Shown here: positions 1,676-28,774 of the stretch, in pieces
Numbering within the stretch: position 1 is the stretch's first letter
Layout of the letters: each line of letters starts with the position of its first letter
Source of the DNA: Ardenticatenia bacterium
GTDB taxonomy: Bacteria; Chloroflexota; Anaerolineae; 4572-78; NAK82
Reading direction: 5' to 3'
NCBI GenBank assembly: GCA_003130875.1
Contig: QEXY01000003.1
Location: forward strand, 1 to 48,256
Length of the DNA: 48,256 nucleotides
Made by a program: the position numbers and the translations under genes
The notes under the pieces: model-generated
Databases searched by the model: none
The model's input: only the letters and a program-made list of their open reading frames with translations
Told to the model about the DNA's origin: nothing

Positions 1676-2725
1676 CTATGGCAGGACTTGGATGCCCTCG
1701 CCTGCCACCACCTCACCGATCACCCAATAGGGCTCTCCCGCCGCCTGGAAGCGCTCGGCAAGCTGGGGCAGTCGCTCCGCCGGAAGCGCGACCAGCAATC
1801 CGCCGGACGTCTCAGGAGTAAAAAGCAACATGCGCATCGCCTCGGAGATTTGCGGTGCGAAGTCCACGGACGCCTCATACATACGCTGGTTGCTGCATGT
1901 CCCGCCGGGGAAGACCTGTTGTTCGGCATACGCGATCGCACCTTCCAAGAAGGGGAGTCGCTCCACATAGATGTGCAACCGCACCCCGCTCTTCTGCGCC
2001 ATTTCCATCCCATGGCCGAGCAAGGCAAAGCCGGTGATGTCGGTGCAGGCATGCACGCCGACTTCCTGGATCAGTTGCGCGGCTGTGCGGTTGAGTTTCT
2101 CCATGCTGCTCACGGCCTGGGTCACGTGAGCAGGCTGCGCGATGGAACGCTTGAGCGCGGTAGTGATCACCCCCACTCCCAGTGGCTTGGTCAGAATCAG
2201 ACGATCCCCTGGGCGGGCACCTGCCTTGGTCAGCACACGCTGAGGATGTACGGTTCCCATCACAGCGAGGCCGTATTTGGGCTCGTTGTCGCGCACCGTG
2301 TGCCCGCCGACCAGCACCGCACCCGCTTCGGCCACTTTGTCAGCGCCGCCGCGCAGGATCTCCGCGATGATGCCCTGCGGCAAGTTATCCGGAAACCCGC
2401 AGACGTTCATGGCGAGCACAGCTTCGCCGCCCATCGCATACACGTCGCTCAGGGCATTGGCAGCCGCAATGGCACCATAGTCGTAGGGATCATCCACGAT
2501 GGGCGTGAAAAAGTCCACCGTCTGGATGACCGCCACGTCTTCGCTGATCCGATAGACGGCAGCGTCATCCCCGTCTCCCAAACCCACCAGCAGGTTGGGA
2601 TAGTGGCGGGGATCAAATCGATTTTGCAGCGGGCGCAACACGTGCGCCAGGGCCTCCGGGCCCAGCTTGGACGCTCAGCCCGCTGCGCTGGCCATCGCGG
2701 TCAGGCGAATCGTTTCCTCGTCCAT
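1676..2725 (-). CDS. selD: Selenide, water dikinase SelD, selenocysteine-containing (UGA-encoded Sec17)
   Basis: SelD makes selenophosphate from selenide and ATP for Sec and selenouridine synthesis. The open frame from 2641 lacks the catalytic N-terminus. Reading the same frame upstream through one TGA (2677-2675) to the ATG at 2725 restores it: MDEETIRLTAMASAAG-U-ASKLGPEAL. The TGA codon is residue 17, exactly where E. coli SelD has its catalytic Cys17, and the essential Lys20 is also in place. Total 349 aa, the normal length. Downstream are DGDDAAVY, TVDFFTPIVDDPYDYG, ANALSDVYAMGG, GGHTVRDNEPKYGLAV and TDITGFALLGH, all SelD motifs. A SECIS-like hairpin follows the UGA directly. It lies 49 nt downstream of the phosphohexomutase gene, probably in the same transcript. 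An automatic caller would start at GTG 2641 and miss the active site. Confidence 0.93.
2644..2677 (-). promoter_or_regulatory. Putative bacterial SECIS element in selD
   Basis: Directly after the UGA (2677-2675), the mRNA can fold into a hairpin inside the coding sequence. The upper stem is GGGCC (2663-2659) paired with GGCCC (2654-2650) around a CGGA loop. The lower stem is GCG and CCA paired with UGG and CGC, with a bulged U and an AGCU bulge. The apical loop starts 16 nt after the UGA and has a G at its second position, which fits the known spacing and loop preference of bacterial SECIS elements recognised by SelB. The fold was worked out by hand, without energy calculation. Confidence 0.7.
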
Positions 2726-23218: not shown

Positions 23219-24670
23219 ATGGAACGCGGCATCAATATCACCCATCGTCACAGCAGACTCGCCTTCGCGCGACTCAGCGAAGAACAATGTCAGCGATTAC
23301 ACAACGCCAGCCTGCAGATTCTGGAGCGCACCGGTGTGCGCCTGTATCTCCAAGAAGCGCTCGATCTGTTGAAGCGCGCCGGCGCCGAAGTCTTTGACGG
23401 CAACCGAGTGCGCATCCCTGCTCAGCTGGTGGAACGGGCGCTGGAGACGGCGCCTAAACGCCTGGTTGTCTACGATCGCAACGGCCGGCCGACGTTGTTC
23501 CTGGAAGGTTACCGCAGCTATTATGGGCCGGGTTCAGATCTGCTCAACATCATCGATCATCGTACCGGCGAGCGCAGGCGGCCGGTGCTCCAGGATGTCC
23601 GAGAGGGTATCACCCTGTGCGATGCGCTGCCCAACATCGACTTCGTGATGTCGATGTTCCTGCCCAGCGATGTCCCCCAAACCGTTGCTGATCGCTTTCA
23701 AATGGAAGTGATGCTCAGCTACACCACCAAGCCCATCGTGTACGTGACCTATGACACGAGCGGGTGTCTGGATGCGGTGGAAATGGCGGAGATCGTCGCC
23801 GGCGGTGCACAGGCGCTGCGCGAGCGACCTTTTACCCTGTGCTATATTAACGTGACTACCGGGCTACGCCATAACCGAGAAGCGCTGGAGAAATTACTGT
23901 TTATGGCGGACAAAGGGTTGCCGGCGCTCTACATCCCCGTGGGTTCGGGCGGTCTCACCGCTCCGATAACAATGGCCGGGGCGATGGCATTGGTCAACGC
24001 CGGCACCCTGGTGGGCCTGGTCATCGCCCAGCTGCGGCGACCTGGCACCCCGATCATCATTCCTGGATGGGGTGGGGAAACGTTGGACATGCGCACGATG
24101 GTCGAACCCTATGCCGGCGCTGATTACCAGGGCATTGCTGAGTCACTGGCCCATTTCTACGGCCTGCCGGTCTTCACGCTAGGCGGTGCGAGCGATGCCA
24201 AGCTGCCCGACGGCCAGGCAGCTGCCGAAGCAGCATTAACCCTCTTGCTGCGGGCATTGAGTGGTGGCCAGCTGGTCCACGATCTGGGATATCTGGAATC
24301 CGGGCTATGTGGTTCCCTGGCGCAGCTGGTCATCTGCGATGAAATCGTGGGGTGGATCAAGGCGGCCCTGAGCGAGGTTGAGATCAACGATGAAACGCTC
24401 GCCCTGGATTTGATCGACCAGGTGGGACCGGATGGCCAATTCCTGGAGAGTGAGCACACCTTGCGGTATTATCGCGAGCGATGGTATCCGCATTTGTTCG
24501 AACGCGAAAATTATGAACGTTGGCAATCGCGCAGGAGCAAGTCCGTCGTACAACGCGCTGCGGAACGGGTAGAGGAGATTTTAGCTCGCCACGCGCCGCC
24601 CATGCTCCCTGCGGATGTGGCCATTCAAGTGCACGCCGTTGTGGATCGGGCTGTGCAACGCTACGGTTGA
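23219..24670 (+). CDS. MttB-superfamily methyltransferase, non-pyrrolysine type (first copy)
   Basis: 483 aa, full length for the trimethylamine methyltransferase family. Residues ~15-110 hold the N-terminal signature (LHNASLQILERTGVRLYLQEALDLLKRAGAEV, GPGSDLLNIIDHRTGERRRP). The C-terminal barrel contains LVHDLGYLESGLCGS. The frame runs through without any TAG codon, so it lacks the pyrrolysine of true MttB. Such members (e.g. MtgB) demethylate glycine betaine or related quaternary amines onto a corrinoid protein. No corrinoid protein gene is in the window. It follows the ABC importer and CBS-ACT genes after 104 nt, with AGGAG upstream, which points to an imported methylated amine as substrate. 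Confidence 0.9.
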   Translation: MERGINITHRHSRLAFARLSEEQCQRLHNASLQILERTGVRLYLQEALDLLKRAGAEVFDGNRVRIPAQLVERALETAPKRLVVYDRNGRPTLFLEGYRSYYGPGSDLLNIIDHRTGERRRPVLQDVREGITLCDALPNIDFVMSMFLPSDVPQTVADRFQMEVMLSYTTKPIVYVTYDTSGCLDAVEMAEIVAGGAQALRERPFTLCYINVTTGLRHNREALEKLLFMADKGLPALYIPVGSGGLTAPITMAGAMALVNAGTLVGLVIAQLRRPGTPIIIPGWGGETLDMRTMVEPYAGADYQGIAESLAHFYGLPVFTLGGASDAKLPDGQAAAEAALTLLLRALSGGQLVHDLGYLESGLCGSLAQLVICDEIVGWIKAALSEVEINDETLALDLIDQVGPDGQFLESEHTLRYYRERWYPHLFERENYERWQSRRSKSVVQRAAERVEEILARHAPPMLPADVAIQVHAVVDRAVQRYG

Positions 24671-24714: not shown

Positions 24715-26175
24715 ATGAAACCCGTGTTTTATCCTGTGGCACTGCCACGCTTACTCATGCTGGACGCTGCCCAATGCGAGCAGATTCATCTGGCTGCTCT
24801 GGAAGTGCTGCGTCGCACCGGGGTGCGCGTTTACCAGGACGAGGCCCTTCGTCTGCTCAAAGAAGCGGGTGCCTATATCTGTGATACTAACCTGGTCAAA
24901 ATTCCCGCGGCGCTGGTGGAATGGGCGTTGCAACAGGCACCTTCTTATATTGGACTGTGTGCGCGCGGTAGCGACCAAGTGGTGGCATCGCTGGCGGGCC
25001 GTAACGTCAGCTTTGGCCCTGGCTCAGATTGTCCCAACTATCTCGATCCACACACAGGAGAAAAACGCCGCTTCACCACGCAGGACGTGATCGACTGCAT
25101 CCGCTTGGTGGACGCGCTGCCACAACTCAGCTTTGTCATGTCCATGGGTATTCCTTCCGACATCCCCGCCGCGGCAACAGGCGGTTCGCGGCACAATGTG
25201 TATCGCCATCAGTTCGCCTTGATGTTGGAGCACACGGTCAAACCCATTGTGTTCGTGTGCGATGACCGGGCGGACTGCGAGGCGATCACCGCTATGGCCG
25301 CTGCGGCAGCCGGTGGGCTTGAGCAGCTCCAACGCAACCCGACCTTGCTCCTCTACTCAGAGCCCACGTCACCCTTGCAGCACAGCCGCACTGCTACGGA
25401 GAAGCTGTTGTTCATGGCGGAGCATCGCCTGCCGGTGGTGCATTCACCAGCTCCGATGATGGGTGGTACCGCACCCTCTTCTCTGGCAGGTGGGCTCGTC
25501 CTTGGCACGGCGGAGGTGTTAAGCAGTCTGGTCATCCATCAGCTCAAACGTGCTGGTGCGCCGTTTGTCTTCGGCAGCGGACTGCACCATATGGACATGA
25601 AAACCACCATCAGCGTATATGGTGCGCCGGAGTTCCAGCTGGCACGCATCGCAGTGGCGGAAATGGGCCAGTACTACGGTCTGCCTACATGGGGATATGC
25701 TGGTCACTCGGATAGCAATGTCATGGACGAGCAGGCAGCTGCTGACGCCGCCCTGTCGGTCTTCATTGCCCTGTTGACGGGCACCAACTTGGTGCACGAT
25801 GTGGGCTACCTGGAAGCGGGTCTGACCACCTCTCCGGAGATGATCGTTTTCACCGCCGAGATGATCGATTTCGGACGGCAGATCGTGCAAGGCATCTCGC
25901 TGGATGCCGAGGCAATAGCGCTGGAGGTCATCCACCGGGTGGGGCCCGGTGGAGATTACCTGAGCGATGTGCATACCCTGGCGCATTTCCGCGGATTCTG
26001 GCAGCCGATGCTGTTCGACCGCCGGCGCGCCGAGGCATGGCAAGCAGCAGGAAGCAAACGCCTCGGAGAACGGTTGCGCGAACGCACGATCAACCTCATG
26101 GAGAGCCATCGCCCTCAGCCGCTGCCTGATGCCGTCAAGGAAGAGGTACAGCGCATCCTGGCAGGCGGATCGTGA
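24715..26175 (+). CDS. MttB-superfamily methyltransferase, non-pyrrolysine type (second copy)
   Basis: 486 aa paralogue of the preceding gene with the same layout (IHLAALEVLRRTGVRVYQDEALRLLKEAGAYI, FGPGSDCPNYLDPHTGEKRRFTTQDVID, NLVHDVGYLEAGLTTS). It is clearly diverged, so this is an old tandem duplication and not recent copying. No internal TAG. The two may act on different methylated substrates or form one complex. It lies 44 nt downstream of its paralogue with a strong GAGGAGGT ribosome site. Its stop codon overlaps the start of cutA. Confidence 0.9.
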   Translation: MKPVFYPVALPRLLMLDAAQCEQIHLAALEVLRRTGVRVYQDEALRLLKEAGAYICDTNLVKIPAALVEWALQQAPSYIGLCARGSDQVVASLAGRNVSFGPGSDCPNYLDPHTGEKRRFTTQDVIDCIRLVDALPQLSFVMSMGIPSDIPAAATGGSRHNVYRHQFALMLEHTVKPIVFVCDDRADCEAITAMAAAAAGGLEQLQRNPTLLLYSEPTSPLQHSRTATEKLLFMAEHRLPVVHSPAPMMGGTAPSSLAGGLVLGTAEVLSSLVIHQLKRAGAPFVFGSGLHHMDMKTTISVYGAPEFQLARIAVAEMGQYYGLPTWGYAGHSDSNVMDEQAAADAALSVFIALLTGTNLVHDVGYLEAGLTTSPEMIVFTAEMIDFGRQIVQGISLDAEAIALEVIHRVGPGGDYLSDVHTLAHFRGFWQPMLFDRRRAEAWQAAGSKRLGERLRERTINLMESHRPQPLPDAVKEEVQRILAGGS

Positions 26176-26522
26176 TGGAGACGGGATTTGGCACGATGAC
26201 GGAAGCGACACACGTTGTGGTGTTGATCACAGCACCCTCGCGCGAGGTCGGCAGGCAGATCGCAGATAGCCTCCTGGAAAAGCGACTGGTGGCCTGCGTC
26301 AACATGATCGCTCCCATCGAATCACGCTATCTTTGGAAAGAGGAGCATTGCACGGATGAAGAGGTGTTATTGCTCGCCAAGACGCGCGCCGACCTCTTCA
26401 CCGAGCAGCTGGTGCCGACAGTGCGGTCGATCCATCCCTATGAGGTGCCGGAGATCATCGCGCTGCCGATCCTGATGGGGTCGACAGACTATCTGGCATG
26501 GATCGACGAATCGACTGGCTGA
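26175..26522 (+). CDS. cutA: CutA1-like divalent-cation tolerance protein
   Basis: About 115 aa, family-typical. Hallmarks are VVVLITAPSREVGRQIADSLLEKRLVACVNMIAPIESRYLWKEE, TDEEVLLLAKTR and SIHPYEVPEIIALPI. CutA is a small trimeric ferredoxin-fold protein linked to copper tolerance, though its function is not firmly known. Start options are GTG 26172, ATG 26175 (chosen; it shares one base with the preceding stop codon) and ATG 26196. The 3' end overlaps the convergent oxidoreductase gene by 34 bases. Confidence 0.9.
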   Translation: METGFGTMTEATHVVVLITAPSREVGRQIADSLLEKRLVACVNMIAPIESRYLWKEEHCTDEEVLLLAKTRADLFTEQLVPTVRSIHPYEVPEIIALPILMGSTDYLAWIDESTG

Positions 26523-28774
26523 TCGCCCTCGTCCGCGGTTTCGGGTGGAATTTTCACCACATCGCAGAGCAGCGCCTTGTAAACCGGGAAGCCCGAGATC
26601 TCGTCGCGATTGTCAGGGTCGGTCAGCACGTTGACGTTGCATTCGCGCCACTCCGGGCTGGCGATGGGGCTGCCTCCTCCCATATTCGCTTCAATGACGT
26701 CCGGGACGATGTCCTCTGAGACAAGCGCGGTATAGCGCACCCGACCGCGCGGCGTCACAACCCAAACAAAGTCGCCAGAGCGAATCCCGCGTGCTGCCGC
26801 ATTGCGCGGATGCAAGGTGACAAGCGGTTGGGGTTGCATCTTGAGCAGCCCGGGAATGTTATGGTGCTGCGAACGAAAATCGGACTGAATGCGTGCACCG
26901 GAGTTAAACACCAGCGGATATGCACGCGCCAGTTCAGGGGTCGAGATCGGGCTCTCCTTGGGTTCGATGTAGACCGGCAGGGGGTCGTACCCATAAGCGG
27001 CCAGGATGCTGGACGCAATCTCAAACTTGCCGGAAGGGGTCTCGAATCCGGGCTGACCGTCGTGCCGCAGTAAGCCCAACTCCCACTTGCGATACTGTTG
27101 CGTTACAGGATGCCACGTGATGCCGAGAGGCTGTCGACGCACAGTTTCCAGGTCGAATCCGCTGCCTGCCAATGCCCAACAAATGACATCTTCCTCCGAT
27201 GAAGGATACAGGTGACCGTAGCCCAGCCGGTTCGCGAGTGCGATGGCGATATCCCAGTCGCTGCGTGCCTCTCCCAACGGCGCGATAACGCGCTCGCGCA
27301 CTTGGAAGGTGGGGCCATAGACCATGTAGCCCTGATTCTCAAACAGCGTGGTGGCGGGCAACACGATATCGGCATATAAGGCATCGGCGGTCAGGAAACG
27401 GTCCACCACCACCATAAAGTCCAGGTTGCTGAAACAGCGGCGCCACAAATCCGGGTTGGGGTAGCTGGTGATGATCGACGAGCCAACGATCATCATAGCA
27501 CGTATGGGATAGGGATCGTCCTGCAGGATAGCGCGTGGCAACTCCATAGCGTGAGCTTCGCGCCGATAGAGATAATAGAGCGGGTAGCGATCCTTGCCAA
27601 CGGGCGGAACGGTGTTTGGCGGTTCGACGCGCCGGCTCTGGTTGATCGGAAAGTCCGCACCGCGCATCTTGATCACCTTGCCGCCCGGCACGTCCAGGTT
27701 GCCGCTCAAGGCCCACAGGATGAGCACCGCACGGATATTTTGGGTGCCGCTATTGGTGTACTCCAGGCCGGTGTAGCTCACCAGGCATGCTCCTCGGGCA
27801 CGTGCAATGGCACGCGCGGTGTTCCTGATCTCCTCTGCTGGCACCCAGGTGATTTCCGCGGCGCGTTCCGGCGTGAACTGTGCCACGTAGGCCTTAAGCT
27901 CCTCAAAGCCAACCGTCCACCGATCGACGAAGGTGCGGTCGTACAGTCCTTCAGCGATGAGGACGTGGATCATCGCGAGTGCCAGAGCCCCGTCTGTGCC
28001 CGGTCGGATGCCCAACCATTTGGCATTTGTCGCGCGCGCCGTTTCGTTGCGCCGGTGATCAATGACGATGACCTTCGCCCCACGGCGCCGTGCCTGACAG
28101 ATGCGATGGTAGTTGACCGGCGGCGAGTCGGTGGCAGGGTTGTCACCCCAGATCACGATCAACTCGGCATTCTCGATGTCGGGGTACATGTCCGCTTCCC
28201 AGATACCGAACGTGGTGGCTGGCGCGATGATGCCGTGGGATACATAGCAGATGGAACCGACCCCCGTGGTGTTGGGCGACCCCAGCGGGAAGAAGAGGCT
28301 CCACGCCGACGATTCGCGCACGCCTGCCGGTGTCAGCAGATGGCACAATGTCCAGTCAAAAGCGCCGCGCCCGGTGTACATACAGATTGCCTGAGGGCCA
28401 TAACGCTGTGCCACGCGGCGTATGCCTTCGGCAATGGTGTCGAGTGCCTCGTCCCAACTGATGCGCTCGAAGCGACCCTCACCGCGCTGCCCGACACGCC
28501 TTAGCGGATACTGCAGGCGGTCAGGCGAATAGACGATCTCAGGCGCGTGAGCGCCTCTGGGACAGCATAAGCCTTGTGGATGCCCCTTCCAGGGTGCCAG
28601 ACGGCTGATTTTGCCATCCTGAAGATGAATTTCAACCCCACAGCCTCCCGGACAGACCCCGCACAGGCCATAGAAAATCTGGTGTGTCTTATCGTGCTCT
28701 GGTGAACGCACCTCAGTAGTGTCAGCGGGCAGCGGGGTATCGATTCGGCAATCTTCCACTCCACAGTCTTCCAT
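26489..28774 (-). CDS. Molybdopterin-dependent oxidoreductase, DMSO-reductase superfamily
   Basis: 761 aa. N-terminal [4Fe-4S] site: CGVCPGGCGVEIHLQDGKIS followed by a fourth Cys in GLCCPRG. The bis-MGD cofactor region follows: PLRRVGQRGEGRFERISWDEALDTIA, CYVSHG (probable Mo-ligand Cys), LIVIWGDNPATDSPP, KVIVIDHRRNETA and a C-terminal molybdopterin dinucleotide-binding domain. No Tat or Sec signal is seen, so it is probably cytoplasmic. No small iron-sulfur or membrane subunit is encoded nearby, so electron partner and substrate are unknown. It could be a thiosulfate/polysulfide-reductase-like, formate-dehydrogenase-like or acetylene-hydratase-like member. ATG 28774 is the first start after an in-frame stop, with AGGAGGT 12 nt upstream. 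Confidence 0.85.
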   Translation of the reverse strand: MEDCGVEDCRIDTPLPADTTEVRSPEHDKTHQIFYGLCGVCPGGCGVEIHLQDGKISRLAPWKGHPQGLCCPRGAHAPEIVYSPDRLQYPLRRVGQRGEGRFERISWDEALDTIAEGIRRVAQRYGPQAICMYTGRGAFDWTLCHLLTPAGVRESSAWSLFFPLGSPNTTGVGSICYVSHGIIAPATTFGIWEADMYPDIENAELIVIWGDNPATDSPPVNYHRICQARRRGAKVIVIDHRRNETARATNAKWLGIRPGTDGALALAMIHVLIAEGLYDRTFVDRWTVGFEELKAYVAQFTPERAAEITWVPAEEIRNTARAIARARGACLVSYTGLEYTNSGTQNIRAVLILWALSGNLDVPGGKVIKMRGADFPINQSRRVEPPNTVPPVGKDRYPLYYLYRREAHAMELPRAILQDDPYPIRAMMIVGSSIITSYPNPDLWRRCFSNLDFMVVVDRFLTADALYADIVLPATTLFENQGYMVYGPTFQVRERVIAPLGEARSDWDIAIALANRLGYGHLYPSSEEDVICWALAGSGFDLETVRRQPLGITWHPVTQQYRKWELGLLRHDGQPGFETPSGKFEIASSILAAYGYDPLPVYIEPKESPISTPELARAYPLVFNSGARIQSDFRSQHHNIPGLLKMQPQPLVTLHPRNAAARGIRSGDFVWVVTPRGRVRYTALVSEDIVPDVIEANMGGGSPIASPEWRECNVNVLTDPDNRDEISGFPVYKALLCDVVKIPPETADEGDQPVDSSIHAR

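Follow-up and report, generated by a model that had tools for sequence, protein, structure and literature searches.

The DNA analysed here (the window) is a stretch of 48,256 nucleotides from the genome of an Ardenticatenia bacterium (GCA_003130875.1, contig QEXY01000003.1). The reverse strand of positions 1676 to 2725 holds selD, the gene for selenide, water dikinase (selenophosphate synthetase, SelD), which is full length at 349 amino acids when one in-frame TGA is translated as selenocysteine (Sec). Its frame begins with an ATG at 2725, passes through its sole in-frame TGA at codon 17 (2677-2675) and ends with a TAG stop at 1676-1678. With the TGA written as U, the protein starts MDEETIRLTAMASAAGUASKLGPEALA... 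Against TIGR00476, the SelD equivalog profile, the read-through protein scored 394.8 bits (cut-off 125) in a full-length match that starts at profile position 1 and at SelD residue 7, upstream of the UGA; against NF002098 it scored 350.1 bits (cut-off 299). Alignment to E. coli SelD (PDB 3u0o) was gapless at the N-terminus and placed U17 on Cys17 and K20 on Lys20. The gene thus encodes a full-length SelD with UGA at the catalytic position. A sequence-only reading of the window had proposed just this: a frame extending upstream of an apparent GTG start through a single TGA to an ATG with a SelD N-terminus, the TGA standing at E. coli Cys17 and Lys20 being kept. Translation, profile match and the alignment to 3u0o all bear it out. 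By profile search, selD is present in one copy in the genome, the next match being a 24.6-bit paralogue.

Elsewhere in the window, two tandem MttB-family methyltransferases (23219-24670 and 24715-26175; TIGR02369, below cut-off) are without in-frame TAG, and are therefore probably of the non-pyrrolysine kind. A molybdopterin oxidoreductase on the reverse strand (26489-28774), with FdhA and PhsA as its nearest profiles, is without an in-frame stop.

With translation table 11, the selD locus yields only a shortened open reading frame on the reverse strand (1676 to 2641; 321 amino acids), which starts at the GTG at 2641 and is without Sec17 and Lys20. The same early reading had predicted such a product from a routine start at 2641. 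Automatic annotation would cut SelD short, losing the catalytic residue, and the gene model is corrected here. Exactly this 321-residue frame would be translated if the UGA were a true stop and synthesis restarted at the GTG, giving a SelD-like protein without its catalytic residue. We consider this very improbable. SelD requires both residue 17 and Lys20, and the codons before the UGA encode the conserved SelD N-terminus (IRLTAMASAAG, a stretch kept in relatives), into which the TIGR00476 match extends. The TGA itself, moreover, is kept in nearly all relatives, with a Cys codon instead in the exceptions inspected.

The extent of this conservation was determined at two levels. At the class level (61 genomes, namely this genome and 60 relatives), TGA was found at residue 17 in 52 of 52 readable SelDs among the matches listed. 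Across 201 genomes of the phylum, one TGA was present in 135 of the 148 SelD matches covering residue 17, again among the matches listed; both figures are row counts, and related genomes are not independent. The same TGA was found in two genomes of the same genus, and the named close relatives, MAGs labelled Anaerolineae and Ardenticatenia, have 89% and 84% protein identity, which assigns the organism to Chloroflexota. Among the rows without TGA that were inspected, 13 of 14 have the Cys codon TGC or TGT. The remaining one (L122, from genome G053), the sole class-level case lacking a TGA there, reads N at codon 17 and was for that reason rejected as a class-level Cys-type SelD. Thus, the UGA at residue 17 is conserved and interchangeable with Cys among relatives, as the sequence-only reading required, and its recurrence at the same codon across relatives excludes chance.

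These comparisons also bear on the origin of the TGA. In a draft MAG, it is conceivable that a Cys-type selD had its TGC or TGT turned into TGA by a sequencing error or by mutation to a pseudogene, and one base change would restore Cys; but the same TGA recurs in the two genomes of the same genus and, among the matches listed, in over 130 SelDs from the phylum, and a downstream hairpin accompanies the TGA and is missing from the Cys genes. The probability of such an error or mutation is practically negligible. Conservation of the TGA in relatives thus effectively excludes the truncation and the error explanations.

Some genomes showed unusual selD arrangements. A second, Cys-type SelD in a frame of 743-750 amino acids occurs beside a stand-alone Sec-SelD in G252 (L135) and G222 (L136). 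A tandem pair of UGA-containing selD copies, the second apparently partial, was seen at G025:C278:12525-14255.

Directly after the UGA, positions 2644 to 2674 (reverse strand) form a predicted bacterial SECIS, GCG.CCA....GGGCC-CGGA-GGCCC-UGG-CGC, which was assessed by RNA folding, published bSECIS criteria, synonymous-codon shuffling and a control with Cys genes. Its apical part (2650 to 2663), indicated by the fold and by compensatory pairs, comprises an upper stem of 5 bp (2663-2659 with 2654-2650; GGGCC-CGGA-GGCCC) that follows the UGA after 11 nt, and an apical loop CGGA (2658-2655) that begins after 16 nt. The lower pairs CCA/UGG and GCG/CGC reach down to the UGA, and folding of the sequence directly after the UGA gave -17.1 kcal/mol. 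The bSECIS criteria are an apical loop of 3-9 nt with an upper stem of 4-16 bp, a G in the first two loop positions, a distance of 16-37 nt from the UGA and an MFE of at most -7.5 kcal/mol (PMC13188914). All four agree with the values found here: a 4-nt loop on a 5-bp stem, G at loop position 2, 16 nt (the lower edge of the model) and -17.1 kcal/mol. The hairpin noticed from the letters, with its stem 11 nt and its loop 16 nt after the UGA, therefore fits a bacterial SECIS as had been suggested.

In a plain shuffle of a 56-nt fold that included bases upstream of the UGA, the energy was nothing unusual (z = 0.21), owing to the high GC content of the region; in this longer fold the stem also faces competition from the upstream bases. 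We therefore tested the hairpin beyond the constraint of the encoded protein, recoding every gene synonymously according to its own codon usage. The window hairpin alone gave p = 0.034, and shuffles of 51 related sequences, which are not phylogenetically independent, gave a combined p = 1.7e-15. Of 82 UGA genes, 83% had an apical stem with 4 or more Watson-Crick pairs near 16 nt, as compared to 35% in their synonymous shuffles, and 0 of 300 shuffling rounds matched the observed mean. In contrast, no enrichment was detected in the Cys control (13 Cys genes plus the masked L122, n = 14), with an apical stem in 29% versus 32% after shuffling. Thus, the hairpin is under selection beyond the encoded protein, the enrichment being confined to UGA genes. 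Nucleotides 14 and 23 covary in one register (G-C in 10 and A-U in 6 sequences), as do nucleotides 15 and 23 in the register with a 5-nt loop (U-A in 14 and G-C in 11 sequences); loops of 4 nt alternate with loops of 5 nt among relatives. Note that pair counts alone lean towards structure because pairing was the basis on which the registers were selected, a bias absent from the shuffles and the Cys control. Support for the hairpin as a sequence-level prediction comes from the comparison among relatives, not from its own folding energy.

The genome is a MAG of 3.49 Mb in 195 contigs, with 95.9% completeness and 2.8% contamination. Profile searches located selA on contig C59 (563.8 bits) and selB on contig C4, in a 647-residue frame (316.4 bits for the main stretch, 363.1 with a neighbour stretch); a tRNA-Sec with anticodon UCA lies on contig C77 (70.3 bits). 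SelA, SelB and a Sec tRNA had been expected from the selD sequence, and all three were found in the same MAG, their contigs being tied to that of selD by MAG binning. These genes also speak to a general change of the code (UGA as Trp or Cys) or near-cognate suppression. Either would account for a frame that is open once UGA is counted as sense, but both are extremely improbable: tRNA-Sec UCA, SelA and SelB are all present, the candidate UGA sites found fall on redox-active Cys positions, and a SECIS-like hairpin follows the UGA of SelD. We regard it as almost certain that the selD product is a Sec-containing selenophosphate synthetase, UGA17 being read as Sec via the downstream SECIS.

In family searches that sampled the selenoproteome, seven peroxiredoxin-family matches were found in the genome, four of them with an in-frame TGA at the active site (L111, L112, L114 and L115, on contigs C72, C73, C41 and C31), the U falling on the peroxidatic residue (TPVUT, TFVUP) or within a UxxC motif (QTUGPC, FVUPFC). 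Selenoproteins are known from the peroxiredoxin family (PMC13188914). SelD as the sole selenoprotein of a self-serving system was rejected on account of these four genes; Sec decoding therefore serves more than SelD, and, judging by the gene sequences, the proteins made with it appear to be SelD and at least four others with redox roles. One of the four genes has a C-terminal glutaredoxin-like stretch and one comes after a long N-terminal region. The genome's four molybdopterin oxidoreductases have no stop in the domain, and thus a Sec-FdhA was not seen; family searches of the genome found no Sec-thioredoxin, no SelW-type protein and no tRNA selenouridine synthase. The latter result agrees with published data (PMC1794560), in which the Chloroflexi sequenced by 2006 lacked the selenouridine trait. 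Among the 61 genomes searched, the only clear selenouridine synthase was L076 (G014:C475; TIGR03167, 360 bits). A little-known lineage of Chloroflexota is thus seen to encode the complete system for Sec decoding, along with at least five candidate selenoproteins.

Alongside the elements computed here (gene model, UGA conservation, UGA-only hairpin enrichment, machinery genes, single selD and other UGA-Sec candidates), established knowledge of the family suggests how the system would operate. Ribosomes would initiate at the ATG at 2725 and reach the UGA at codon 17, where SelB carrying Sec-tRNA-Sec(UCA) would bind the predicted hairpin directly after the UGA, so that Sec is inserted and termination avoided. 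Sec17 would replace Cys17 in the flexible N-terminal loop, beside the conserved Lys20, and the enzyme would convert ATP and selenide to selenophosphate by selenide-dependent ATP hydrolysis. Selenophosphate would then be used by SelA to make Sec-tRNA for more SelD and for the four Sec-peroxiredoxin-type proteins. Because this is the only selenophosphate synthetase found in the genome, we infer that SelD would be needed for its own synthesis.

In the reference set of a published survey, the Sec form accounts for 19% of prokaryotic SelDs (PMC4561486). Compared with this value, the 135 of 148 among the matches listed indicates that Chloroflexota is rich in Sec-SelD, and in the sequences compared Sec-SelD with a SECIS appears as the norm, near-fixed in the phylum. 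We lean, with some reservation, towards Sec-SelD being ancestral as well as nearly fixed in Chloroflexota, with rare Sec-to-Cys losses in a few families in which the hairpin was lost too. If so, the phylum would be naturally suited to testing why cells let their selenium-activating enzyme depend on itself.

Sec-containing SelD occurs, for example, in Aquifex aeolicus and Haemophilus influenzae. The bacterial family has been described (PMC1794560, PMC4561486) and ranks second among prokaryotic selenoprotein families in how widespread it is (PMC13188914), in keeping with the initial remark that such enzymes were already known in other bacteria. The Sec-SelD of the window is an ordinary addition to this long-known family, and our understanding of SelD function or Sec insertion is unchanged by it. 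Relative to known Sec-containing bacterial SelDs, here the gene, known from sequence, specifies the same enzyme with the same Sec position, a SECIS directly after the UGA and dependence on SelA, SelB and SelC; only the host lineage differs, and the hairpin sequence is lineage-specific. Self-dependence of SelD would be shared with other bacteria that have Sec-SelD alone. E. coli SelD (3u0o) is homologous over the whole length, with Lys20 and the kinase core kept, whereas Sec17 and Ser19 here take the places of Cys17 and Cys19. Within the bSECIS model (PMC13188914), the hairpin combines a CGGA loop with the shortest spacing allowed.
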